Part shown: positions 2,724 through 16,161 of the stretch, one piece after another
Layout: every line of letters starts with the position of its first letter
Numbering within the stretch: the stretch's first letter is position 1
Source of the DNA: Alphaproteobacteria bacterium
GTDB lineage: Bacteria; Pseudomonadota; Alphaproteobacteria; Caulobacterales; Aquidulcibacteraceae
Length of the DNA: 64,000 nucleotides
Reading direction: 5' to 3'
Assembly: GCA_018971945.1 (NCBI GenBank)
Contig: JAGWZH010000003.1
Coordinates: 1-64,000, forward strand
Program-made: the position numbers and the translations under genes
Notes under the pieces: generated by a model
What the model saw: the letters and a program-made list of their open reading frames with translations, nothing else
What the model was told of the DNA's origin: nothing
Databases searched by the model: none

Positions 2724-4162
2724 CGGAAGGCTGGCTCGTCAAAGCTCCTCAGTTTTCGAGAGTGAAGCGCGGTCACGTCCTCTTGCAGAAGGGTGATGGT
2801 TTTGAGCCCGATCTGAAGGTGCGCCCCGATCGCGCTCTCGTAGAACTTGTCCGCCTGACCCGGCAGCTTGATTTCGCCATGGAGGGGCTTGTCCGACACG
2901 CACAGCAGCACCCCATACGGCACCCGCATGCGGAAGCCTTGGGTTGCGATGCAGGCGCTTTCCATGTCCACCGCGATGGCCCGTGACTGGGACAAACGCT
3001 TGCGCTCGTCTTTGTAGTTTAACTCCCAATTGCGGTCGGCATAGGAGACCACAGTCCCCGTTCTGAGACGGGCTTTGAGCTCCTCACGGCCGTCCGCCGC
3101 TTCCGCGGCCGCCTGCTGAAGGGCCACCTGCACTTCCGCGATGGCCGGGATCGGGATCTCAAGGGGAACCTGGTCGTCGAGGATCTTGTCGCGCCGCAAA
3201 TAGGCATGGGCCAACACATAATCGCCAATCCGCTGGGTGGCGCGAAGCCCGCCGCAATGGCCCACCATGATCCAGCAATGCGGCCTCAAGACGGCCAAAT
3301 GGTCGGTGATCGTCTTGGCGTTCGAGGGACCAACCCCGATATTAATGAGGCTCACGCCTCCTCCCCCAGGCCGGATCAGATGATAGGCGGGCATCTGGAA
3401 CTTGCGCCAGGGGGCGTTCAGCGCAGCCTCGGCGATATTCGGCGCAGACGCGTCCAGCCGGACCCGACCGGCGCAGGACAGGATTGCGCCCGCGCCGCTG
3501 GCGACTTCGTCCGCGGCCCAACGGACGAACTCCTCCACATATCGCTGATAATTCGTGAACAAGATCCAGGACTGCAGGTCCGCCCATGGCGCGCCCGTGT
3601 AATGCTCCAGCCGCTTCAAGCTCATGTCCACGCGAGGCGCTTCAAAAAGCGACAAAGGTCGAGCCCCATCATGGCGCAGGATCGTATCGCCATCGACAAT
3701 CGCATCGCCCACATCGGCCAGTTTTGGGTAGGGAAAATGCCGCGCCAGGTCGCGCATTTTTATGGCGTTGGGATCAAGACTCCCAACCCCATCGATCACA
3801 AACGGATAAGGGATCTCGGCTTCCGAGACGCCCACTTCCAAAGCCGCGCCATAATCCTCGACAAGCGGCTTGAGCTGCTCCAGCAAATAGGGTCGGAAGT
3901 GTCGCGGTTGGGTAACCGAAACCGCATAATCGCCGGGCCAGATCAGTTGGCCGAAGGCGCGACTGGCCCGCCCGCGGGCGGAGGGGCGGCCGTCATAGCG
4001 CACGCGCAATTCAGGATAGCGGAATAACGCGCGCTCATCGCGGGTGGGCGTCGCGCCCGTCTCCGTAAAGCGTGCGACCGCGGTTTTCAAAGCGCCAACC
4101 GCCCTATCGAAATGGACAATCAGCTCCTCGACGGCGTGTTCGGGGGTGTCGCAGCGGGCCAT
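2720..4162 (-). CDS. amn: AMP nucleosidase
   Basis: About 480 residues, close to the E. coli enzyme. It cleaves AMP to adenine and ribose 5-phosphate, controlling the adenylate pool. The N-terminal Amn-specific domain (TRDERALFRYPELRVRYDG, then SRAFGQLIWPGDYAVSVTQP) is followed by a nucleoside-phosphorylase-like catalytic domain with INIGVGPSNAKTITDHLAVL, WIMVGHCGGLRATQRIGDY and AVDMESACIATQGF. The reading frame is open to a GTG at 4186. I prefer ATG 4162 because GAGG lies about 7 bases before it and the protein then starts at the usual length. The terminal four bases overlap the acyltransferase stop. Confidence 0.93.
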   Translation of the reverse strand: MARCDTPEHAVEELIVHFDRAVGALKTAVARFTETGATPTRDERALFRYPELRVRYDGRPSARGRASRAFGQLIWPGDYAVSVTQPRHFRPYLLEQLKPLVEDYGAALEVGVSEAEIPYPFVIDGVGSLDPNAIKMRDLARHFPYPKLADVGDAIVDGDTILRHDGARPLSLFEAPRVDMSLKRLEHYTGAPWADLQSWILFTNYQRYVEEFVRWAADEVASGAGAILSCAGRVRLDASAPNIAEAALNAPWRKFQMPAYHLIRPGGGGVSLINIGVGPSNAKTITDHLAVLRPHCWIMVGHCGGLRATQRIGDYVLAHAYLRRDKILDDQVPLEIPIPAIAEVQVALQQAAAEAADGREELKARLRTGTVVSYADRNWELNYKDERKRLSQSRAIAVDMESACIATQGFRMRVPYGVLLCVSDKPLHGEIKLPGQADKFYESAIGAHLQIGLKTITLLQEDVTALHSRKLRSFDEPAFR

Positions 4163-4296: not shown

Positions 4297-4863
4297 TCAT
4301 TCGCGTATCACCGGGTCCGCAATCCGCGGCCGGCGATACTCCACCTTGGCGATTTCAAAGGGCATCGCTGAAAAGAGACCCAAGGGCGGCTCATAATCAA
4401 TCAATGTTTCGCCGACCACCAGACCCGAGTTGGGAATCTGCATGCCCTCGGGAATAGCGATCGTCGTCCCCGGCGCCAGGGGCGTCATGCCCGCCCCTTC
4501 GCTCCACTGGACTTCGGCCACACCATCCTCATCAATGAAGACGCTGGTGATGCGGGCCGTGACGCGGCTCGCTTCGGTCGGATGCGTCAGCCAAGGCACC
4601 GCAGCAAACAGGTCCTCGACTTCCTCGTCGGTCACGACCACATCGCGGGAGACGATATCAGCCAGAGATCCCGCAGCGATCTCAGCCCGGCTATTGGCGG
4701 CGGCGGCGTCGGTCAGCTCAAACGACATGAACAACAAAAGGAACATCATCGGGGCGATCAGCGCGAACTCGAGCGCCGCAACTCCGTCGCGGCTCTCTCG
4801 AAAGCGGATGCACAAAGCCGAGACATTCAGCCCCTTGGCAATCTCGATCACAATCGCCCCCAT
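4297..4863 (-). CDS. TadE/TadG-like pilus assembly pseudopilin
   Basis: 188 residues. After a basic start (FRESRDG) comes VAALEFALIAPMMFLLLFMSF, the TadE-like prepilin segment with a conserved Glu near the start of a single hydrophobic helix. The rest is a periplasmic domain. TadE/F/G proteins are minor pseudopilins of the Flp/Tad pilus, processed by the prepilin peptidase. It lies 141 bases beyond a second TadE-like gene on the same strand, so the two probably form one transcript running away from the pilin genes. It could equally be called TadF or TadG; its length argues against a full vWA-type TadG. Confidence 0.78.
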   Translation of the reverse strand: MGAIVIEIAKGLNVSALCIRFRESRDGVAALEFALIAPMMFLLLFMSFELTDAAAANSRAEIAAGSLADIVSRDVVVTDEEVEDLFAAVPWLTHPTEASRVTARITSVFIDEDGVAEVQWSEGAGMTPLAPGTTIAIPEGMQIPNSGLVVGETLIDYEPPLGLFSAMPFEIAKVEYRRPRIADPVIRE

Positions 4864-5004: not shown

Positions 5005-5565
5005 TCATGACCCGTCCGGCCAGGGCTCGTTGCGAAATAGAAAGGCTGAGTACATCACCCTCTGCCCCCCATCGATATTGCCGAAAATGTCCTGAAAGAA
5101 GGGCGTGAAAACTTGATGCTGGTAAAATCCGCGAACCAGAACAATGTCGCTGGGATCACCTGGGTCAAAAGCCATCTCCGCCTCTTCGATCAGACCATCG
5201 TCGGCTGGATCGCCGTCCGCCACCTCCGTGAACGCGTCGAACCGGCGGACGTCGACAAAGAGGTCGCCGCCGCAATCAACCGGCAAGATACGGCCCATGC
5301 TGGAGCAAACCTCATTCCGGATATCAGCCGCGGTGAGGCCGGCTTGCTGAATTTCGCCAGTGCGGATGCGCCGGGCCGTCTCGGTCATGGCGAGGTCGAG
5401 ATTGCTTTGGACCAAACCAATAACGGCCACTTCCGCGAGCGCCATCAAGGTCAAAACAAAGGGCGCGCCGATCAAAGCAAATTCCACCGCCGTCGCGCCG
5501 CTGCGGTCTTGCCCGGCGCGTCGCAGCGGGCCAGCAAGCCTCAACAGAACTCCTTGGAACGCCAT
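5005..5565 (-). CDS. TadE-like pilus assembly pseudopilin
   Basis: 186 residues. The basic, glycine-ending leader (RRAGQDRSGA) and TAVEFALIGAPFVLTLMALAE form a clear TadE-type type III prepilin signal with Glu5 present. A soluble extracytoplasmic domain with a Cys pair (NEVCSSMGRILPVDC) follows. ATG 5563-5565 has a GGGAG-like site about 7 bases upstream. It is the first of two tandem TadE-like genes, and the secretin-N-domain gene sits upstream on the same strand. It is probably a minor component in Flp pilus assembly. Confidence 0.82.
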   Translation of the reverse strand: MAFQGVLLRLAGPLRRAGQDRSGATAVEFALIGAPFVLTLMALAEVAVIGLVQSNLDLAMTETARRIRTGEIQQAGLTAADIRNEVCSSMGRILPVDCGGDLFVDVRRFDAFTEVADGDPADDGLIEEAEMAFDPGDPSDIVLVRGFYQHQVFTPFFQDIFGNIDGGQRVMYSAFLFRNEPWPDGS

Positions 5566-5689: not shown

Positions 5690-6214
5690 CTATTCAGCAC
5701 TCCGGGCCTGTCCGGAGCGGGCATTGGCTTGTCCAAGCGCGCGCTCAAAGCTAATGCTGCTATCGCCAATATCGGGGCTCGGGCGACATTCGGGGTTGCA
5801 CGCCAGACGGCTGACATCGGCTCCCCGGATGACCATCACCGCGCCTGTCTCATCCGGCACAACCGTCACTCTACCATGATAAATCACAGCGCCCGCATCG
5901 TCGACCACCGTCAGGCTCGTCGAACCGTAGGCGCGTCCGGTCACAAACAAAAGACGGTTGTTCTGAACCGACACGCCAGCGACTGAGGGGTTTCCGATCA
6001 CCACGCCCGCTGCATCGGCCGAAAGCCGAACAGGAGCGGCGGTGTCGATTGTCAAATGGAGATCCCGGTTCTCCGCAGCCACGACCGGAATTCGGGGGGC
6101 GCTCCGCGGCGCTCCGCCATCCGCATGGGCCGCTCCGGTGGCCCAAGCCATCCCCGCCAGGACGGCCGCCGCTCCGCCCGCCGCCAAAGCCCCCACTGTC
6201 ATCGCGCTCCGCAT
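5690..6214 (-). CDS. Pilus assembly N-terminal-domain protein (lone secretin N-domain, CpaC-like)
   Basis: 174 residues from ATG 6212-6214, chosen over the in-frame GTG at 6235 because GAGGG lies 4 bases before the ATG. A signal peptide (AMTVGALAAGGAAAVLAGM ... AHA) precedes one domain of the T2SS/T3SS pilus N-terminal type. The pattern VRLSADAAGVVIGNPSVAGV ... VTGRAYGSTSLTVVD parallels the start of CpaC in this window (LPVDARDVLLSNPAIADAVV ... VIGRSLGQTNAFF). It has no secretin channel domain, so it is likely a periplasmic accessory of the Tad secretin. The end ARSGQARSAE is low complexity. Confidence 0.78.
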   Translation of the reverse strand: MRSAMTVGALAAGGAAAVLAGMAWATGAAHADGGAPRSAPRIPVVAAENRDLHLTIDTAAPVRLSADAAGVVIGNPSVAGVSVQNNRLLFVTGRAYGSTSLTVVDDAGAVIYHGRVTVVPDETGAVMVIRGADVSRLACNPECRPSPDIGDSSISFERALGQANARSGQARSAE

Positions 6215-6517
6215 ATCGCCCTCTATGGCCGCCACGCCCGGCCGGCGGGCGCTTCTCTGATTTCACACGAGGTCTGAGATAGCGGCTTTAGGTTGCCCAA
6301 ATCTGAAGAGCTCGGAGGCGCCCGCCGCACGCGCTGCGGTCCAGACCCCAAGGCCTGACGAGGGCGCTCGCGCAGCTTGCGCTAGTGATTTGTTTTTTCT
6401 TTTTTTCAAGGGAGCTCGCCTTGCACGTTTGTTTGATCGTGTCTGGACTGATCGTCAGTCATGGCGATCAAGGCGAGGCGCTTAGGTCCTTGATTTTACG
6501 CGAACAGGAGAGCCCCC
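6215..6517. other. Intergenic region between the Pil_N-type gene and the first flp gene
   Basis: About 300 bases separating divergent genes. No convincing ORF. It contains a short hairpin (GCGCA-GCT-TGCGC, 6370-6382), a T-rich stretch at about 6391-6407, and the nested inverted repeat at 6433-6471 described separately. Promoters for both directions must lie here, but I cannot assign -35/-10 boxes with confidence. Confidence 0.6.
6433..6471. promoter_or_regulatory. Nested inverted repeat in the leader of the variant flp gene
   Basis: Outer perfect 7-bp arms TTGATCG (6433-6439) and CGATCAA (6465-6471) enclose inner perfect 6-bp arms GACTGA (6446-6451) and TCAGTC (6455-6460) with a TCG loop. 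The arms are nearly concentric, with asymmetric internal bulges of 6 and 4 bases. It ends 46 bases before the flp start, so it could be an mRNA leader stem-loop or a protein-binding dyad. The role is inferred only from symmetry and position. Confidence 0.45.
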
Positions 6518-6697
6518 ATGATGCTGACCACCCTGCGTCGTTTTCTGAAATCCAAAGATGGCGCCACCGCGATCGCGCACGGCCTCATCGACGCCCTGAT
6601 CGGCGTTGTGATCATTTCCGCGGTGACCGCCCTTGGAACGACCATCGAAACCCAGTTCAACGCCATTGAAAAGGCGATCGCCGCCTCGACCGCCTGA
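6518..6697 (+). CDS. Variant Flp-type prepilin lacking Glu5/Tyr6
   Basis: 59 residues. The sequence resembles the second flp gene 350 bases downstream: leader RRFLKSKDG, predicted cleavage after Gly15, then a hydrophobic helix (IGVVIISAVTALG) identical in both. The Flp core, normally ATAIEYGLIAALI, reads ATAIAHGLIDALI here. Mature residue 5 is Ala not Glu, residue 6 is His not Tyr, and residue 10 is Asp not Ala. Glu5 is the family's most conserved residue, linked to methylation and assembly. The gene has a GGAG-containing site about 8 bases before its ATG and an intact frame. It may be a minor or regulatory subunit, or a decaying duplicate. Confidence 0.85.
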   Translation: MMLTTLRRFLKSKDGATAIAHGLIDALIGVVIISAVTALGTTIETQFNAIEKAIAASTA

Positions 6698-7048
6698 TCT
6701 CAATCATAAGGCGCGCCTTCGCCCTTGAGGTGGGGCGCGCCCTGAGGCGGCCCGCTGCGTCGTTCTCCTTCGCCGCCTCCCCCCCGGCGTCCGATCCCCT
6801 CGGGTCCCGCCCTCTCGCCGCGCCTCACGTTTCAAGGGGGGCCTCTCGCGCCAAAGACGGCGGCCATCTCTCCCGCGGGTGGACATATATAGTTATTTCA
6901 CATCAACTATATTTTCTTCTTTTTTGCCTTTATTTGTTTACTGACCCTCAACTCCAATCTGTCATCTAAGGTCGCGTCTGGACAGGGCGTTGGGTGCTCC
7001 GACAAACGCCAGGCGGCTCGGTGCACACAACCAGAAGGAGTTATCACC
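6698..7048. other. Intergenic region between the two flp genes with an AT-rich island
   Basis: 351 bases without a convincing gene. First comes a GC-rich part with a hairpin (ggcgcgcc arms at 6710-6717 and 6734-6741, no T-tract) that may stop or stabilise the first flp transcript. Next is a markedly AT-rich island (about 6884-6950) in an otherwise very GC-rich genome, carrying the dyad at 6887-6912. Finally there is about 90 bases of leader ending in AGAAGGAG, a good ribosome-binding site 8 bases before the second flp ATG. Confidence 0.65.
6887..6912. promoter_or_regulatory. Perfect 8-bp dyad in the promoter region of the main flp gene
   Basis: ATATAGTT (6887-6894) and AACTATAT (6905-6912) are perfect inverted copies separated by 10 bases. 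They lie at the start of the AT-rich island upstream of the canonical flp gene. TATATT (6908-6913) could double as a -10 element, which would make the dyad an operator overlapping the promoter. I do not recognise the cognate regulator. There is no CtrA-type TTAA-N7-TTAA site here. Confidence 0.45.
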
Positions 7049-7225
7049 ATGATGATGAAGTTGCGTCGTTTTCTCAAATCCAAGGACGGGGCGACGGCGA
7101 TCGAGTACGGCCTGATCGCTGCGCTGATCGGCGTTGTGATCATTTCCGCGGTGACCGCCCTCGGCACCACAATCGAGAACCAATTCAACGCCATTGAAAA
7201 GGCCGTGAAGGCGCCGAAGGTCTAA
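7049..7225 (+). CDS. pilA: Flp/Fap-type pilin (main Tad pilus subunit)
   Basis: 58 residues. Leader MMMKLRRFLKSKDG, cleavage expected after Gly14, then ATAIEYGLIAALIGVVIISA, the canonical Flp pilin core with Glu5-Tyr6 of the mature protein. It ends in a short polar tail (KAVKAPKV). This is the structural subunit of the Tad pilus, processed by CpaA and polymerised by CpaF/TadB/TadC. ATG 7049 is preceded by AGAAGGAG. It has its own AT-rich promoter region and a strong terminator before cpaA, as expected for a subunit needed in excess. Confidence 0.95.
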   Translation: MMMKLRRFLKSKDGATAIEYGLIAALIGVVIISAVTALGTTIENQFNAIEKAVKAPKV

Positions 7226-7396: not shown

Positions 7397-7912
7397 ATGC
7401 TCATCATCGCCGCCTTGACGCTCTTTACGATCCTGCTCCTGGTCGCGGCGGCGAACGATATCGCCACAATGACTATTCCCAACTGGGTCTCTGCAGCTCT
7501 GGTCTTCGCATTTCCGCTTTTCGCCCTCGCTGCGGGCCACAGCATCGCTTTCATCGGCTACCACTTGGCCGTCGGCCTCATCGTGCTTGCTCTCGGGATC
7601 GGCTTGTTTTCTCTCAATCTTCTCGGCGGCGGGGATGCGAAAGTGATCGCAGCCGCAGCCGTATGGACCGGCTTGAGCGGGCTGGTCGTGTTTGTGAGCG
7701 CCATGGTATTGGCAGGCGGAGTTCTGGCGCTCAGCCTTCTCGCGCTGCGGCGTTTGGCGAAGCCGCAGGACGGACGACCTGCTTTCCTCAACCGCCTGCT
7801 CGATCGCCAGCGCGGAGCCCCTTATGCCGTGGCGATCGCTGTCGGCGGGATCGCCGCATTGCCCTCCTTGCCCTTTGCAAGCCAAATCGCGGGCCCGTTA
7901 ACTCCGTTTTAG
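7397..7912 (+). CDS. cpaA: Prepilin peptidase CpaA/TadV
   Basis: 171 residues, inner-membrane aspartic peptidase (A24 family) of the short, non-methylating TadV/CpaA type. The two catalytic aspartates are visible: Asp21 in NDIATMTIPN and Asp80 in LLGGGDAKV. Four to five hydrophobic helices surround them. It would cleave the Flp leaders at Gly-Ala and probably those of the TadE-like proteins. It is first in the cpaABCDEF-tadBC run, 65 bases after the pilin terminator, so a promoter is expected in that gap. Confidence 0.93.
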   Translation: MLIIAALTLFTILLLVAAANDIATMTIPNWVSAALVFAFPLFALAAGHSIAFIGYHLAVGLIVLALGIGLFSLNLLGGGDAKVIAAAAVWTGLSGLVVFVSAMVLAGGVLALSLLALRRLAKPQDGRPAFLNRLLDRQRGAPYAVAIAVGGIAALPSLPFASQIAGPLTPF

Positions 7913-7966: not shown

Positions 7967-8812
7967 ATGCTGTCTGTTCGTCAGCTCATCGTCCTCGGTG
8001 TGGCCCTTGCGGCGGCCGTCGGCGCCGCGCTGCTCATCGGCAATATGTCTGCTCCCGCGCCCCCCGCCCCTGAAGCGGCTCAGGAGGCGACAGGTCAACA
8101 GGTGCTGGTCGCCGTGCGGGACATCCCGCAGGGCTCTCTTCTCTCCGCCGCGGATTTGCAGTGGCGCCGCCTGCCGGACGACGCGATTGGGCCGACCTTC
8201 ATCACTGAAACGGCCCACCCCGACGCGCTCACTGAATTTGTCGGCGCGGTCAATTTGCGCCCATTGGCGACAAACGAACCCCTCCAAGACGGGGCTCTCG
8301 TCAAGCCTGGCGATGGCGGGATGCTTGCAGCGCAAGTGGCGCTTGGATATCGCGCCGTCGCCGTCATGATCTCGGAGGAATCCGCCGCAGGCGGCTATAT
8401 CCAACCCAATGACCGGGTCGATGTGATCTTGACCGTCAGGAGGCCTACGCCTGCTGCAGGCGGCGGCAGCGGCTTTGAAATCATTTCCGATGTGATTTTG
8501 GAAAATGTGCGGGTGCTCGCGGTCGGCGAGCTCACGCAAGTCGCGCCGCCGCGGGAGGGCGAAGGCCAAGCCCAAAATCTCGCTCAAACAGCGGTCCTGG
8601 AATTGAGCCAGGAGGACAGCCGCACAGTGGCGCGGGCGGAGGCGTTAGCGCAAGATACGGGCGGATTGCGCCTCGTCTTGAGGGGCGTGCAGTCAGAGCC
8701 GCCGGGTTTGGAGGCGCCGAGCGCGCAGCGCTGGCGCGCCGCCTCTCTGGAGCAGGGCGTGGAGCAAATGGGCGGCGTCCGGGTGCATTCCTTCGGCGAG
8801 GAAGCACGATGA
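7967..8812 (+). CDS. cpaB: Flp pilus assembly protein CpaB (RcpC)
   Basis: 281 residues. One N-terminal membrane helix (LIVLGVALAAAVGAALLIG) is followed by a SAF domain (VLVAVRDIPQGSLLSAADLQ, residues ~45-105) and an RcpC/CpaB domain with VAVMISEESAAGGYIQPNDR and VDVILTV. CpaB is a periplasmic partner of the Tad secretin. Its end overlaps cpaC by ATGA, suggesting translational coupling. Confidence 0.92.
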   Translation: MLSVRQLIVLGVALAAAVGAALLIGNMSAPAPPAPEAAQEATGQQVLVAVRDIPQGSLLSAADLQWRRLPDDAIGPTFITETAHPDALTEFVGAVNLRPLATNEPLQDGALVKPGDGGMLAAQVALGYRAVAVMISEESAAGGYIQPNDRVDVILTVRRPTPAAGGGSGFEIISDVILENVRVLAVGELTQVAPPREGEGQAQNLAQTAVLELSQEDSRTVARAEALAQDTGGLRLVLRGVQSEPPGLEAPSAQRWRAASLEQGVEQMGGVRVHSFGEEAR

Positions 8813-10479
8813 ACAGGCTGCTCCGCTGCGCCCTCGCTTCGGCGACCTCGCTCGCTGTCGCTGTTCCCGCACCGCTTTACGCACAGGCTCCCGTGGAGAC
8901 GAGCGCAATCCGCATCTCCTCCAGCGCCGACGGGCAAACCGCCTTCTTGGTGCTGCCGCTGAACAAGGCCGCCATTATCGATTTGCCGGTCGACGCCAGG
9001 GACGTGCTGCTGTCAAATCCCGCCATCGCCGACGCGGTCGTCCGTACCGCACGGCGGGTGTACGTCATCGGCCGAAGTCTGGGGCAAACAAACGCCTTCT
9101 TCTTCGATGCGCGGGGCGGCCAAATCGCCAGCGTGGAAATCCGCGTCGAACCTGATGTCGGCCCTCTCAATGAGCTGTTGGCGCGGCACGCGCCTGAGTC
9201 CCGAGCGCAAGCCGAAGCCGTGAACGGCTCATTGGTGCTGACAGGCTCTGTCCGCAGCGCGGCGGAAGCCGAACGCGTGCTGCAGATCGCCACCCGCTTC
9301 ATTCAGTCCGGCGGGGCCGCAGCCGGAGGCGGAGCGCCCGGCGCCAGCGCCGGGGCCGGCGGCGCCGCGCCAGAAATCGTCAATCTTCTGCAAGTGGGCG
9401 GCTCCGAACAAGTGATGGTTCGGGTCCGGGTCGTCGAAATGAGCCGGACGCTGGTCCGCCAGCTCGGGGTGAATGTCAACGGGGAGAATATCCTCAACAC
9501 CCTGATGCCGGAAGACGTCTTTGTTCGGGTCGCCACGGAAAACGGCTTTTCTATCGCTGGTCGCGCGCTCGGCGGTCTGTCCGCGACGGCGGGCGTCGCC
9601 GACACCATCCTCCAACCCAGCAGCCTCACCTTTCCAGGCTCACAGGCAGCCACCGTGCCCAGCGCAGCGGCAGGCGTCGGGGGCTTTTCGTTCGATAATG
9701 GCGGAACGCTCGACCCAGTCGACGACGAGACGGTCTTCGGGCCCGCCCAGACCCGCTCCAGCCAAGTGGACGCCTCCATCGACGCGTTTGAACGCGCAGG
9801 TCTGTTGCGCGTGCTGGCGGAACCGAACCTTACTGCGATTTCAGGAGAGCCAGGGCGCTTTCTCGCAGGGGGGGAGTTTCCTGTTCCCATCGCCGCCGAC
9901 AACGGCGAGATCTCAGTGGAGTTCAAACCCTACGGCGTGGCCTTGGCCTACACCCCAGTCGTGCTCTCCGGCGGCCGGATCTCGCTCAAACTCTCGACGG
10001 AGGTCAGCGAACTGACCAGCGAAGGCGCGATCGCCACCGGCGATGTGCCGATCCAAAATCCGGACGGCTCCACCTCCGTCTTGCGGGGCATCACGATCCC
10101 AGCCCTGCAAGTGCGGCGGGCGGAAACGACCGTAGAGTTGCCGTCGGGTGGCGCGCTGGTGCTCGCAGGCCTCATCCAAGAACGCTCCCGGGCCGCCATT
10201 GAAGGCATTCCCGGCGCCATGAACAGCCCGATCCTGGGAGCCCTCTTCCGCTCGCGGGATTTCGTCAATAGCGAGACTGAACTGGTCATCATCGTGACCC
10301 CTTATCTCGTTGAGCCGACCAATCCCAACCAGCTGCGGACCCCGGCGGACGGTTTCCGCAATCCGACTGAGGGGGAGTCCATTCTCGGCGGTCGCCTTAA
10401 CGCGATGTATCGCACACCCACTGATGGGTCCGGGCGCCCCCGCGCTTTGCAAGGCCCTCACGGCCATGTTCTCCCATGA
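8809..10479 (+). CDS. cpaC: Tad pilus outer-membrane secretin CpaC (RcpA)
   Basis: 556 residues. Signal peptide ending APLYAQA, pilus N-terminal domain (LPVDARDVLLSNPAIADAVV, ~35-115), a BON-like segment (~120-165), a Gly/Ala-rich linker, then the secretin domain (~330-530). The secretin domain contains VPIAADNGEISVEFKPYGV and VLAGLIQERSRAAIEGIPG, followed by ETELVIIVTPYLVEP. It forms the outer-membrane channel of the Flp pilus. Both ends overlap their neighbours by 4 bases (cpaB and cpaD). Confidence 0.95.
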   Translation: MNRLLRCALASATSLAVAVPAPLYAQAPVETSAIRISSSADGQTAFLVLPLNKAAIIDLPVDARDVLLSNPAIADAVVRTARRVYVIGRSLGQTNAFFFDARGGQIASVEIRVEPDVGPLNELLARHAPESRAQAEAVNGSLVLTGSVRSAAEAERVLQIATRFIQSGGAAAGGGAPGASAGAGGAAPEIVNLLQVGGSEQVMVRVRVVEMSRTLVRQLGVNVNGENILNTLMPEDVFVRVATENGFSIAGRALGGLSATAGVADTILQPSSLTFPGSQAATVPSAAAGVGGFSFDNGGTLDPVDDETVFGPAQTRSSQVDASIDAFERAGLLRVLAEPNLTAISGEPGRFLAGGEFPVPIAADNGEISVEFKPYGVALAYTPVVLSGGRISLKLSTEVSELTSEGAIATGDVPIQNPDGSTSVLRGITIPALQVRRAETTVELPSGGALVLAGLIQERSRAAIEGIPGAMNSPILGALFRSRDFVNSETELVIIVTPYLVEPTNPNQLRTPADGFRNPTEGESILGGRLNAMYRTPTDGSGRPRALQGPHGHVLP

Positions 10480-11192
10480 GGCGCTCCATGACGCTTTCCT
10501 CCCCTCGTTGTTCCAACCCGCTGCTTGTCGGCCTTGGCTTGTCCATGAGTCTCGGCGCCTGCGTCACCCCCAACACGCCGCCTCCGCCCGTGGCGTTGGC
10601 GAGCGCAGTGGACCAGCATCGCATCGAGGTGCTTCAGACGGGCGAGCGTTACGACATCACGGTGGGCCCTTCCGATATGGGTTTGACGCCGGAGACCCGC
10701 TCCGAGATTCTCGCCTTCGCCTCCGCCTATCAGGAGGAAGGCCACGGCGCCTTGGTCATGAGCGCACCATCGGGCGGAGACAACGCCGACGCCGCAGCCC
10801 GCGCGGCGCAACAAACGCGGCTCGCTTTGATGTCCGCAGGCATACCCTATGCCGCGATCGCGCCTTCGGTCTATGACGCCTCCGGCATGGCGAGGCCGCC
10901 GATCGTGCTGAGCTTCACACGCTATGAGGCTGTCGCGCCCGACTGCCGTCCGATCTGGGAACAGGATCTCTCCGACAATATGCACCAACCCTACGCGAGC
11001 TTTGGCTGCGCGACACAGGCCAATCTGGCTGCGATGATCGAGGATCCCCACGATCTCTTGCAGCCAAGGACAATGACGCCCCGCGACGCGGCCCGACGCG
11101 CGGTGGTTCTGGACCGCTATCGCAACGGTCAGCCCACGGGGGCCGAGCGGTCCAGCGACGAGCAGGCCGCGATCAGCGATGTGATCGATTGA
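10476..11192 (+). CDS. cpaD: Tad pilus lipoprotein CpaD
   Basis: 238 residues. A lipoprotein signal (LGLSMSLGAC) is followed by TPNTPPPPV and a CpaD domain resembling OmpA-like sugar-binding folds in layout (LTPETRSEILAFASAYQEEG ... ALMSAGIPYAAIAPSVYD). The conserved cysteine-containing block PDCRPIWEQDLSDN ... YASFGCATQANLAAMIEDP is diagnostic of CpaD. It probably helps CpaC reach or stay in the outer membrane. It overlaps cpaC by 4 bases. Confidence 0.9.
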   Translation: MRRSMTLSSPRCSNPLLVGLGLSMSLGACVTPNTPPPPVALASAVDQHRIEVLQTGERYDITVGPSDMGLTPETRSEILAFASAYQEEGHGALVMSAPSGGDNADAAARAAQQTRLALMSAGIPYAAIAPSVYDASGMARPPIVLSFTRYEAVAPDCRPIWEQDLSDNMHQPYASFGCATQANLAAMIEDPHDLLQPRTMTPRDAARRAVVLDRYRNGQPTGAERSSDEQAAISDVID

Positions 11193-11203
11193 GAGGAACG
11201 CCC

Positions 11204-12727
11204 ATGTCTCAGCGTGAGGCCTCAACCGGCCGGCCGCCGCTCAATCCAAGAAACGTCCTCGCTGGCGACGATCCGTTCGCCGCGGCGCTGCGCTCCGACG
11301 AGACCCAAGCCGTGGCTCGCAAAGGGGCGCGACCTGCGTCCGCTGCTCTCGGCGGGTTTATCGGTCTTGTTTCGGACGAGGCGGCGGATCCAACGCCCTC
11401 GCCGACGACTGGTCCCTTTCCCTCCCTGTCTGCGGAGCCAACGCCTTCGGCGGCCGCCTCATCCTCGAGGACGCCGCCCGGGGAAGCCCTTGGCGGAGGC
11501 GATATGTTGGGTGCGGGGGTCCGCGATGCCGACCAGCCCGTCCCCTATATCCGTATCCACGCCGCCTGCGATCGCCGCGAAGTGGCCAAGACGATCCAAG
11601 CCGCCGCCGGAGACAGGCGATTGGCCAAGGCGCAGATCAGCATCGAACTTGGCGGGGTTGGAGCCGCTTTGGTTCGGCTCGCGGGCCAGCCGAGCCCCGA
11701 CCTCTTGATCCTCGACACCGAACTGCGTGGTCAGGATCTGCTCCATGCCCTGGAACGCATGGCCGAGCTTGTGGAACCCAAATGCAAGGTCATGGTGATC
11801 GGGGCCACCAACGATATTGGTCTCTATCGGCGTCTGATGCAGATGGGCGTCAGCGAGTATCTTGTGGCGCCGCTGCAGATTGTGTCCCTGATCCGGTCGA
11901 TCGGCGCGCTCTATGCGGATCCAGACAAGCCCTTTGCAGGACGGACAGCGGCCTTTATCGGCGCCCGCGGCGGGGTGGGCGCGTCCTCGCTCGCCCACAA
12001 TGTCGCCTGGGCAATCTCAGAACAGCAGCGGGCCAATGTCAGTCTTGTGGATCTCGACCTTCCCTTCGGCACCGCCGCTCTCGACTTCAATGAAGACCCT
12101 GCGCAATCGATCACTGAGGCCCTCGCCGCCGCCGACAAGGTGGACGCGATGTTCCTCGACCGGGTGATCAGCCGTCCCACAGAGCGTCTGCAGCTCTTCA
12201 GCGCGCCAGCCAAGCTTGAGCGGACCTTGGAGATCGACCCCGAAAGCGTCAGCCTCGTTTTGGACAAGATCCGCCGGACAGGGCCCCATATTATTCTTGA
12301 TTTGCCCCATCTTTGGAACGGCTGGATGAACCAGACGCTGGCCAGCGCCGATGATATCGTGATCGTGGCTTCGCCGGATCTGTCTTCGTTGCGCAACGCC
12401 CGGCATCTTGTCGAGTTCGCCGTCAAGAGCCGGCCGCACGACGCGCCGCCCTTCGTGGTGCTGAACATGGTGGGCGTGCCGAAACGTCCTGAAATCGCTC
12501 TCAAGGACTTCGCCGAGCACGTGGGCGCCGCGGTCGTTGCGGAGATCCCCTTCGATCCCGCCGCGTTCGGGGCCGCCATGAACAACGGACGTATCCTGAT
12601 GGAAGCCTTCGGAGAGTCCAAGACGGCGCAAGCGATTTCCGCCCTCGCCGCCCGTCTGACCGGGCGCGAGCCGCAGGCGCCGAAGAAAACGCGGTTGTTA
12701 GACAAAATTGGCTTGACCAAAAGGTGA
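11204..12727 (+). CDS. cpaE: Tad pilus localisation ATPase CpaE (TadZ)
   Basis: 507 residues from ATG 11204, which has GAGAGGA 6 bases upstream; the frame also opens at a TTG (11189) that I reject. A Pro/Ser-rich N-terminal region (~1-105) precedes an atypical receiver domain (~110-235; LLILDTELRGQDLLHALERM, VMVIGATNDIGLYRRLMQMG). A MinD/ParA-like ATPase follows, with deviant Walker A FIGARGGVGASSLAHN, and DLPFGTAALDF and IILDLPHLWN further on. The usual catalytic Lys of Walker A is replaced, as is common in CpaE/TadZ. It directs the pilus apparatus to its cellular site. Confidence 0.93.
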   Translation: MSQREASTGRPPLNPRNVLAGDDPFAAALRSDETQAVARKGARPASAALGGFIGLVSDEAADPTPSPTTGPFPSLSAEPTPSAAASSSRTPPGEALGGGDMLGAGVRDADQPVPYIRIHAACDRREVAKTIQAAAGDRRLAKAQISIELGGVGAALVRLAGQPSPDLLILDTELRGQDLLHALERMAELVEPKCKVMVIGATNDIGLYRRLMQMGVSEYLVAPLQIVSLIRSIGALYADPDKPFAGRTAAFIGARGGVGASSLAHNVAWAISEQQRANVSLVDLDLPFGTAALDFNEDPAQSITEALAAADKVDAMFLDRVISRPTERLQLFSAPAKLERTLEIDPESVSLVLDKIRRTGPHIILDLPHLWNGWMNQTLASADDIVIVASPDLSSLRNARHLVEFAVKSRPHDAPPFVVLNMVGVPKRPEIALKDFAEHVGAAVVAEIPFDPAAFGAAMNNGRILMEAFGESKTAQAISALAARLTGREPQAPKKTRLLDKIGLTKR

Positions 12728-12733
12728 TCCTCT

Positions 12734-14191
12734 ATGTTTGGAAAGCGCACCAACGACGCTTCGCCGTCCGCGGCGGCGCCAGCCCTGGTAGGCTCTTCCC
12801 GATCGGGTGACGCCCTTCGCGCCGCACAGCCCTCCGACAGCGCCGCCCCCCCCAGGGCTGGGGCGAAGCCTGCGCAGGCCCCCCTGGCCCAGCCTTCGCC
12901 GGATGTCCATTCCGAACAATATTATCAAATCAAATCAATAATCTTCAACGCGCTGATTGAAACCATCGATCTGTCGCAGTTGGCGCAATTGGACATAGAA
13001 AGCGCGCGCGAAGAGATCCGCGATATCGTTGCTGAAATCATCAGCATCAAGAGCGTTGTGATGACCGTCTCCGAGCAGGAGCTGTTGCTCGACGATATCT
13101 GCAACGATGTCTTGGGTTATGGCCCTCTCGAACCCCTTCTGGCGCGAGACGACATCGCCGACATCATGGTCAACGGGGCGAGCACGACCTTCATCGAAGT
13201 CAACGGCAAGGTGCAGAAAACCAGCATCCGCTTTCGCGACAATGCGCAGCTCATGAATATCTGCCAGCGGATCGTCAGCCAGGTGGGCCGCCGCGTCGAT
13301 GAATCCAGCCCGATCTGCGACGCCCGTCTCGCGGACGGCTCGCGGGTCAATGTCATCGCCCCACCCCTGTCGATCGACGGTCCGAGCCTCACGATCCGCA
13401 AGTTCAAAAAGGACAAGTTGAAGCTTGCAAACCTTGTGGCCTACAAATCCATCAGCGAGCCCGGCGCGAAGATCCTCCAGATTATTGGCGCCTGCCGATG
13501 CAACACGCTGATCTCAGGAGGCACAGGTTCGGGAAAAACGACCCTGCTCAACACGTTGACCGCCTTCATCGACCCTGGCGAGCGGGTCATCACCTGCGAG
13601 GACGCCGCTGAGCTGCAACTGCAGCAGCCGCATGTGGTGCGGCTCGAAACCCGTCCGCCAAACATTGAAGGCTCGGGTCAAGTCAGCATGCGGGATTTGG
13701 TGAAGAACTGCCTGCGGATGCGCCCTGATCGCATCATCGTGGGCGAGGTGCGGGGCTCGGAGGCGTTTGACCTCTTGCAAGCCATGAACACCGGCCACGA
13801 CGGCTCAATGGGCACGCTGCACGCGAACACCCCCCGAGAGGCCCTGTCGCGCCTTGAATCGATGATCTCGATGGGGGGCTTTTCCCTGCCTCAAAAGACC
13901 ATCCGCGAGACCATTGTGGCGGCCGTCGACGTGGTGATCCAGGCAGCCCGGATGCGCGACGGCTCTCGGCGGATCACCCACATTACAGAGGTGATGGGCC
14001 TCGAAGGTGACACCATCGTGACCCAGGATCTCTTAATCTACGAGATCGAAGGGGAAGATGAAGACGGCCGCATCCTCGGCAGACATGTCTCAACCGGCGT
14101 CGGTCGCCCCCGCTTCTGGGAACGGGCTCGCTATTATGGTCTCGAGCGGGAGCTCGCCACAGCCCTAGACGAGGCGGAGCGCGCGCGATGA
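12734..14191 (+). CDS. cpaF: Tad pilus secretion ATPase CpaF (TadA)
   Basis: 485 residues, PilT/VirB11-like hexameric ATPase. A disordered Ala/Pro-rich N-terminus (~1-55) precedes the N-terminal domain ([15 protein letters not shown]) and the motor domain. The motor domain has Walker [17 protein letters not shown], Asp box [21 protein letters not shown], Walker [13 protein letters not shown] and His box [14 protein letters not shown]. It powers Flp polymerisation and retraction with TadB/TadC. RBS AAGGTGAT precedes the ATG; the end overlaps tadB by ATGA. Confidence 0.96.
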
Positions 14192-15162
14192 CCCCCACCG
14201 CCTTGCTTGCCGCTTGTCTGATCTTCGCCGCAGTGGCCCTCCTCGCTTTGTTGTTCGAGCCGAAGACAAGCGACAAACGCGCCCTGCAGCGCGTGAAGGA
14301 GATCCAGACCAAGTCGGTCGCCAAACGCGGCGATCTGGACGCCTCGAACGTGAAACGCCGGCAAAACTTTCAAGATGCGCTGAAGGCGCTTGCGGAAGAG
14401 AACAAAAAAGTACGCAAAAGGCGGGTCTCCCTCAAAGGCCAACTCGCCCAAGCCGGACTGCCCTTCGACGAGAGCAAGTACTGGATCGGCGCAGGCGTCC
14501 TTTCGCTCCTGTTGGGGCTTCTTGGTTTCATGCTGCAGGGCATGATCGGCGGTCTTGTCGGGGCCTTCATCGGCGCCTTCGGCTTGCCCCGCTGGCTCTT
14601 GGGCTTTCTCGTCGGACGGCGGCAAAAGAAATTTCTCAACCAGTTCGCCGAAGGCATCGACATGATCGTCCGCGGGGTCAAATCCGGCCTACCGCTGACC
14701 CAATGTTTGAGAATGATCGCGCAGGAGGGCCAAGAGCCGTTGAAGTCGGAGTTTCAGGCCTTTGTCGACGGGCAATCCATGGGCGTCCCGTTCGAAACAA
14801 ACTTGCGGCGCATGTATGATCGCATGCCCCTACCGGAAGTCAATTTCTTCAACATCGTGCTGCTCATTCAACAAAAGACAGGGGGAAACCTTTCGGAGAC
14901 GCTTTCCAACCTTTCAACCGTTCTCCGTTCCCGGAAAATGCTGAAAGAAAAAGTCAAGGCCCTGTCGTCCGAGGCTCGCGCCTCGGCAATGATCATCGGC
15001 TCTTTGCCTTTCATTGTTATGGGCCTTGTTTATATGGTTCGGCCCGATTACATGAATCTGCTTTTCACATCAACGGTCGGGAACTTAATACTCTTGGGCG
15101 CCGGCCTGATGATGAGCGCTGGCGTCCTCATCATGAACAAAATGGTCAATTTCAAATTCTAG
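14188..15162 (+). CDS. tadB: Type II secretion F-family platform protein TadB
   Basis: 324 residues. N-terminal helix, a basic cytoplasmic stretch (KRALQRVKEIQTKSVAKRGD), two further helices (~105-145), then a T2SSF domain (NQFAEGIDMIVRGVKSGLPL ... FFNIVLLIQQKTGGNLSETL) and two C-terminal helices. It is an inner-membrane platform subunit paired with TadC. It starts inside cpaF and is followed after 12 bases by tadC. Confidence 0.94.
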   Translation: MTPTALLAACLIFAAVALLALLFEPKTSDKRALQRVKEIQTKSVAKRGDLDASNVKRRQNFQDALKALAEENKKVRKRRVSLKGQLAQAGLPFDESKYWIGAGVLSLLLGLLGFMLQGMIGGLVGAFIGAFGLPRWLLGFLVGRRQKKFLNQFAEGIDMIVRGVKSGLPLTQCLRMIAQEGQEPLKSEFQAFVDGQSMGVPFETNLRRMYDRMPLPEVNFFNIVLLIQQKTGGNLSETLSNLSTVLRSRKMLKEKVKALSSEARASAMIIGSLPFIVMGLVYMVRPDYMNLLFTSTVGNLILLGAGLMMSAGVLIMNKMVNFKF

Positions 15163-15174
15163 GGCGAGTGGGCG

Positions 15175-16161
15175 ATGGATTTCGGCGAGTGGATCACCAA
15201 CCCTTCCGTCTTGGCGAGCCTGCTTGGGGCTGGGGCGGCCTTCGCCACCATCCTGACCATAGCCCAACCGCTGCTCAGCGGCGCAAAGGCCAGTGCGCGT
15301 TTGAAGGACGTGGCCAAAAGGCGCGAAGAATTGCGCCTTAGAAGCCGGGCTCAGCTTGAGGTGTCTGATCGAAAGTCGCTGACGCGGGCGGACGCGGCGC
15401 AGTTCATGACCAAAGTCGTTCAGCGCTTCAATCTGGAAGCGGCGCTTGCGGTGGAAGGACTGTCTGACAAACTTCAACGGGCGGGGCTCAGAGGGCCTGC
15501 GGCTACAACGACCTATTATTTCTATCGCGCCGCTTTGCCGATCGGGCTCGGCTTGGCCGCCTTTTTCTATCTGTCGGTTCTCGGCTTCGCAGAACGCTTT
15601 GAGATGAACGGCACGCATGTGATGGTGGCCGTGGTCTTCTTCATGGTGATCGGCTTTTACGCGCCCTCGCTCTACATCTCCAATCTCGCCTCCAAGCGGA
15701 AAGAAGCGATCATGCGCGCTTTTCCGGACAGTCTTGATATGCTGCTGATCTGCGTGGAGAGCGGCATGTCCATCGAGCTGGCGCTACAGCGCGTGGGTCA
15801 AGAGATCGCTCCGGTCAGCACGGAGTTGGCCGAGGAGCTGCAGCTGACCTGCGCGGAGCTCTCGTATCTTCCTGATCGGCGCCAGGCTTTTGAAAATCTC
15901 TCCAAACGCACCGATCATCCAGGGATCAAGGCGGTGGGCATGGCGCTCGTGCAGGCGGAAAAATACGGTACGCCGCTTGGCCAGGCCCTGCGGATCATGG
16001 CCAAAGAGAACCGCGACCTGCGGATGAACGAGGCGGAGAAAAAAGCCGCCGCCCTGCCTGCCCAATTGACGGTTCCGATGATCGTGTTCTTCCTGCCGGT
16101 ACTGTTCGCGGTGATCATTGGGCCGGCCATGATCCAGGTTATGGAGATGATGGGCGATTGA
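15175..16161 (+). CDS. tadC: Type II secretion F-family platform protein TadC
   Basis: 328 residues. N-terminal membrane helix (LASLLGAGAAFATILTIAQ), cytoplasmic region, two helices (~125-180), a T2SSF domain (AFPDSLDMLLICVESGMSIE ... YGTPLGQALRIMAKENRDLR) and a C-terminal helix (VPMIVFFLPVLFAVIIGPAM). It is the second platform component of the Flp pilus. It is last in the plus-strand cpa operon; tadD faces it 15 bases beyond its stop. Confidence 0.94.
   Translation: MDFGEWITNPSVLASLLGAGAAFATILTIAQPLLSGAKASARLKDVAKRREELRLRSRAQLEVSDRKSLTRADAAQFMTKVVQRFNLEAALAVEGLSDKLQRAGLRGPAATTTYYFYRAALPIGLGLAAFFYLSVLGFAERFEMNGTHVMVAVVFFMVIGFYAPSLYISNLASKRKEAIMRAFPDSLDMLLICVESGMSIELALQRVGQEIAPVSTELAEELQLTCAELSYLPDRRQAFENLSKRTDHPGIKAVGMALVQAEKYGTPLGQALRIMAKENRDLRMNEAEKKAAALPAQLTVPMIVFFLPVLFAVIIGPAMIQVMEMMGD

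Follow-up and report, generated by a model that had tools for sequence, protein, structure and literature searches.

A tandem Flp pilin variant lacking Glu5 and Tyr6 as a possible tip-side subunit of an alphaproteobacterial Tad pilus

The window, a 64,000-nucleotide stretch of an alphaproteobacterial contig, carries two Flp pilin genes arranged head to tail, flpV and flp, upstream of an intact tad/cpa cluster (Table 1). The pair is flanked on one side by a divergent tadE/tadF pair and a T2SS-T3SS_pil_N protein, which is small, stand-alone and divergent from flpV, and on the other side by the genes from cpaA to tadC. Translation of both genes reproduced the positions and substitutions given in the initial annotation: relative to Flp (leader MMMKLRRFLKSKDG, mature part ATAIEYGLIAALIGVVIISAVTALGTTIENQFNAIEKAVKAPKV), FlpV (leader MMLTTLRRFLKSKDG, mature part ATAIAHGLIDALIGVVIISAVTALGTTIETQFNAIEKAIAASTA) has exchanged Glu for Ala, Tyr for His and Ala for Asp at mature positions 5, 6 and 10.

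Table 1. Features of the flpV-flp locus (window coordinates; a colon in a peptide marks the prepilin cleavage point)
Feature	Position	Strand	Basis
TadE/F-like minor pilin, Glu5 kept (DG:VAALEFALIA)	4297..4863	-	
TadE-like minor pilin, Glu5 kept (SG:ATAVEFALIG)	5005..5565	-	
T2SS-T3SS_pil_N domain protein (CpaC N-terminal-like)	5690..6235	-	
TCGTGTCTGGAC, remnant of the flp leader 5' end upstream of flpV; remainder unrecognisable	6437..6448	+	
Shine-Dalgarno-like AGGAG of flpV	6506..6510	+	sequence
flpV, Flp prepilin variant, 59 aa, E5A Y6H A10D	6518..6697	+	translation, Pfam
Retained Gly codon (-1) of the flpV prepilin peptidase site (KDG:ATAI)	6560..6562	+	
flpV codons for mature positions 5-6, GCG CAC (A, H); flp counterpart GAG TAC (E, Y)	6575..6580	+	
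Probable gene-conversion tract of 38 bp, with the same bases as flp 7124-7161	6596..6633	+	run test P=0.025
Conserved flp leader element, 77 nt, structured mRNA leader, ends at flp SD	6963..7040	+	
SD AAGGAG of flp	7035-7040	+	sequence
flp, gene for the canonical major pilin Flp, 58 aa	7049..7225	+	translation, Pfam
Prepilin peptidase (CpaA/TadV, Peptidase_A24)	7397..7912	+	
cpaB, secretin cpaC, cpaD, cpaE, cpaF ATPase, tadB, tadC (cpaD, tadB and tadC assigned from position and translation)	7967..16161	+	

Both proteins exceed the cutoff of 32.2 for Pfam Flp_Fap (PF04964), FlpV with 45.4 bits and Flp with 63.8 bits, and an NCBIfam search gave no match for either. FlpV has a basic leader and a Gly at -1 (KSKDG:A), a Peptidase_A24 gene lies in the same locus, and where the Flp motif demands GXXXXEY the variant reads GATAIAH. 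Its frame, leader and ribosome-binding site are intact, as first described, and flpV is free of stops, frameshifts or a lost start that would mark a pseudogene. Judged by these signals, FlpV is probably inserted into the membrane and cleaved by CpaA like a normal Flp. The C-termini of the two proteins differ as well (FlpV/Flp: T/N, I/V, A/K, S/P, T/K, A/V), and it is FlpV rather than Flp that keeps the residues common in relatives, the T of 'IETQF' and the I of 'KAI'. Codon adaptation fails to separate the copies, with a CAI of 0.726 for each, and this value is not significantly above that of synonymous random sequences (P = 0.08). No sigma-54 or CtrA site upstream was convincingly conserved, and a sigma-70 scan of the upstream plus strand returned no site.

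flpV arose from the major pilin gene by tandem duplication. Across the 46 helix codons the two genes differ by 15 synonymous and 4 nonsynonymous changes (dN 0.041, dS ~0.65), and since most synonymous sites differ outside the shared 38-bp run, they are not young copies. This run, which had been noted as almost 40 identical bases, is flanked by synonymous differences and therefore looks like a gene-conversion tract. Compared with relatives, the FlpV helix is altered solely at positions 5, 6 and 10, and Flp is altered from T to N and from I to V near its C-terminus.

The dN/dS comparison that the initial annotation had proposed as a check was carried out with maximum-likelihood branch models, which gave an omega of ~0.06 for flpV, equal to the background. 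Under a shared clock, meaning equal time since duplication for flpV and flp, neutral evolution of flpV since the duplication was rejected (2dlnL 28.1, P = 1.1e-7; P = 3.9e-8 without the conversion tract), but it was not rejected by the weaker, clock-free test of the flpV branch (P = 0.10 overall, 0.37 for the mature part only), which gave P = 0.036 when positions 5, 6 and 10 were omitted. Outside these three positions omega was near 0 and below the background (P = 0.012 with the clock, 0.041 without). Constraint has probably acted on flpV during most of its existence, although it may have been released recently. The view that it is not simply a dead copy draws support from its intact frame, leader and cleavage site and from the shared-clock test, though not from the clock-free one. 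Were three replacements scattered randomly over 45 mature codons, they would strike both position 5 and position 6 with a probability of ~0.003, by post hoc arithmetic.

The loss of Glu5 and Tyr6 is real and rare. A DNA pattern for a Flp core in which Ala, Gly or Val occupies position 5 gave one match among 398 order genomes and one among 385 class genomes, in each case flpV itself, and a core whose position-5 codon does not start with G was found in none of the 398 order genomes; these patterns demand an otherwise canonical core, leaving strongly diverged copies uncounted, and leave out Asp (GAY codons). As a positive control, the corresponding Glu-Tyr pattern matched 94 of 100 genomes, and none of the canonical matches listed for it showed Asp at position 10. 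The same variant, which the initial annotation had expected to be sought beside flp in relatives, was matched by these patterns in no other genome of the two sets, and E5 and Y6 are kept in all of the close Flp copies examined in the family and in mixed relatives. An orphan third Flp gene, AGKTAIEYSMIAALIA, which keeps E5 and Y6, was observed on contig C184 (L076, about 3756-3905, plus strand), with no tad genes among the ORFs listed around it.

The two genes also differ in what precedes them. A model built from 24 leaders found the flp leader element in 40 of 60 family genomes, about once in each, and strong matches for which the position of flp is known sit directly upstream of that gene (for example in L053 and L036). 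In a sample of 160 order genomes the element occurred in this family only (20 genomes). The flp gene of the window carries it at 43 bits, its sequence having been among the inputs of the model. Two mutually exclusive stems covary in the leader (6976-6981/7009-7014 and 6989-6997/7023-7031). The stem GUCUGG/CCGGGC with its inner hairpin has 91.6% of cells paired and 6 double-change pairs, with 0 of 500 shuffles reaching its covariation score, and the stem GUCGGGUGC/GCACUCGAC has 95.3% paired and 3 double-change pairs, with 1 of 500 shuffles doing so, both counts ignoring relatedness. Rfam had no match at the flp leader, its low-scoring microRNA and sRNA hits lying elsewhere and far below gathering scores, and the minimum free energy of either leader was not below that of shuffles (z = -0.52 and 0.61). 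We regard the element as a new candidate for an RNA that regulates the major pilin gene in cis. The idea that flpV has kept this leader through compensatory changes was rejected with covariance models, in which its 5' GTGTCTGGAC part alone matches (R1, 12.2 bits; R2, 0.3 bits).

What the substitutions may mean for assembly can be read from the two solved Tad pilins, which align to Flp with the common core ATAIEYGLI. Within the Tad pilus of Caulobacter, Glu19 (mature 5) forms hydrogen bonds with the Ala17 backbone in one neighbour and with Tyr20 (mature 6) in another, and both Glu19 and Tyr20 are reported to be required for pilus assembly, though not for expression or processing (PMC11067988). 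Because Glu5 bonds to the Tyr6 of a neighbour and FlpV has neither residue, a single network has lost its two partners. By analogy with Caulobacter PilA, FlpV would be expected not to polymerise into the shaft. Filaments grow from the tip to the base. In a T4b pilus, the E5V minor pilin TcpB can start a filament and is not inserted efficiently into a growing one (PMC5207764). Together with the direction of growth, this makes a Glu5-less subunit a better candidate for the start of a filament, at the tip, than for a terminator at the base. Glu5 had been called the hallmark of type IV-like pilins, and it is one, but in type 4 filaments the subunit that caps the tip is normally without it (PMC10191384). 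Within the locus, the TadE- and TadF-like proteins keep Glu5. A TadG-like protein of 668 aa with a VWA domain and a very long proline-rich tract, encoded on contig C139 (L074, 563-2569, minus strand), has Ile at pilin position 5. With this protein present, a cap may already occupy the extreme tip, in which case FlpV could be an adapter, as has been proposed for KilK and KilO (PMC12075869).

Our preferred reading, which we hold tentatively and short of an even chance, is that FlpV is processed like Flp, is excluded from the shaft and serves as an end-restricted, low-copy subunit or adapter on the tip side. The analysis establishes the sequence of FlpV, its uniqueness among the genomes searched and the constraint outside positions 5, 6 and 10, and its processing, position and function we infer. 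After membrane insertion and cleavage by CpaA, FlpV would be barred from an ordinary place in the shaft by the removal of the Glu5-Tyr6 hydrogen-bond network on both sides. It would sit beside the TadE/TadF/TadG-like tip complex, where the Glu5 of the next Flp could meet the N-terminal backbone of FlpV and perhaps its His6, and FlpV itself would need no Glu5, and it could act like the adapter Flps KilK and KilO or like a Glu5-less tip pilin. A tip-side role draws support from the ORF, SD, leader and cleavage Gly, all of them intact, from the fall of the replacements on both assembly residues, from the rejection of neutrality under the shared clock, from the low omega of flpV and its near-zero value outside the three positions, and from precedents in tip-capping pilins without Glu5 (PMC10191384; PMC5207764) and in KilK and KilO (PMC12075869). 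Against it stand the occurrence of the variant in one genome only, the nearest relatives compared being other genera, the clock-free test, the missing leader element, the possible occupation of a Glu5-less tip slot by the TadG-like VWA protein, the lack of an extra domain, and the size of GspK-type caps, which usually exceeds that of the major pilin. A minor subunit, one of the roles first suggested for flpV, is still a viable assignment. It is unlikely, in our judgement, that the stronger version holds in full, namely that FlpV is a selected Flp that gave up the Glu5/Tyr6 docking pair and became confined to the tip end as a minimal single-helix initiator or adapter, three substitutions away from the major pilin and uncoupled from its structured leader RNA.

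A serious competing possibility, though again one we would not call probable, is that flpV is a redundant duplicate in early decay, which was functional for long, partly through gene conversion with flp, and recently lost both assembly residues, so that it now has no role or is mildly harmful. The main argument comes from the variable fate of the slot in the nearest genera, all of them other than flpV's own. The upstream second flp copy is canonical in G015, is diverged in G008, with E5 kept and Y6 lost, and is absent from G020, G016, G025, G021, G009 and G007; the g10 genomes lack it. In both G015 and G008 the single leader match precedes the other copy, in line with the missing leader of flpV, and decay would also fit the failure of the clock-free test to reject neutrality. 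The slot ORF of G008 is Flp-like but strongly diverged (L059, 6788-7351, ~370 bp upstream of flp; GGA:RVSVEQGLIAALVGVV / GGARVSVEQGLIAALVGVVIVSVV) and has no clear SD. Decay is less easily squared with a gene that has no stop or frameshift, whose other helix residues are unaltered, whose replacements fall on the E5/Y6 pair and whose codon adaptation equals that of flp, with the reservation on significance given above.

Improbable, in our view, is an assembly inhibitor, a processed but non-docking pilin that would occupy the machine or the membrane pool, or end chains, and so set pilus length or number. FlpV keeps all hydrophobic helix contacts and could still reach the platform or other pilins, and its place outside flp leader control would allow a different ratio under different conditions. 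However, to end a chain a subunit has to dock below the one added last, for which Glu5 is needed, and TcpB E5V behaves in the opposite way (PMC5207764); the chain terminator put forward in the initial annotation is accordingly disfavoured, and the literature searched held no precedent for an inhibitor of this kind. Very improbable indeed is entry into the shaft through a replacement contact, Asp10/His6 for Glu5/Tyr6, giving hybrid or alternative pili. An acid and a polar partner do remain, shifted by one turn (His6/Asp10 = i, i+4), with an Asp10 not seen among the canonical matches listed, but this purely geometric argument would require a changed register or symmetry and describes a contact that no relative uses.

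The contacts made by Glu5 and Tyr6 are regarded as universal in the assembly of Tad pili, and a natural, translatable subunit lacking only this pair would offer a direct test of whether a Glu5-less Flp helix is able to initiate, cap or poison Tad filaments, and of how the shaft joins the TadE/F/G tip. Should flpV be a decaying duplicate, it would have little import beyond showing concerted evolution of flp repeats.

Among known systems, FlpV is closest to the Flp/PilA major pilins of Tad (T4c) pili (PF04964; Caulobacter PilA, PDB 8u1k/8u2b), with which it shares the leader, Gly(-1), the ATAI start, the hydrophobic helix and a position beside cpaA-tadC, and from which it differs by Ala/His in place of the Glu5/Tyr6 of GXXXXEY (PMC10934763, PMC5430801) and by Asp at position 10. 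With the Glu5-less tip pilins (GspK/PilK type; TadG/CpaL) it has a non-acidic residue at position 5 in common, Ala5, but these are large and carry extra domains, whereas FlpV has 44 mature residues and, at 59 aa against the 58 aa of Flp, is of the size of its major pilin. Bdellovibrio Flp2 is likewise a motif-deficient Flp paralog in a tad locus and mirrors FlpV, since it lacks the cleavage Gly and keeps EY while FlpV keeps the Gly and has lost EY; this truncated Flp2 appears essential for predation (PMC5430801), which shows that a gene may be alive even when its motif is deficient. Finally, KilK and KilO are short Flp adapter pilins that prime the Myxococcus Kil Tad pilus, with roles shown genetically (PMC12075869). 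Unlike them, FlpV scarcely differs from the major pilin of its own locus, but like them it is predicted from its sequence to be a short, all-helical Flp with a leader and cleavage motif (KilO has 59 aa), encoded beside a different major pilin and possibly acting as an adapter between tip and shaft.
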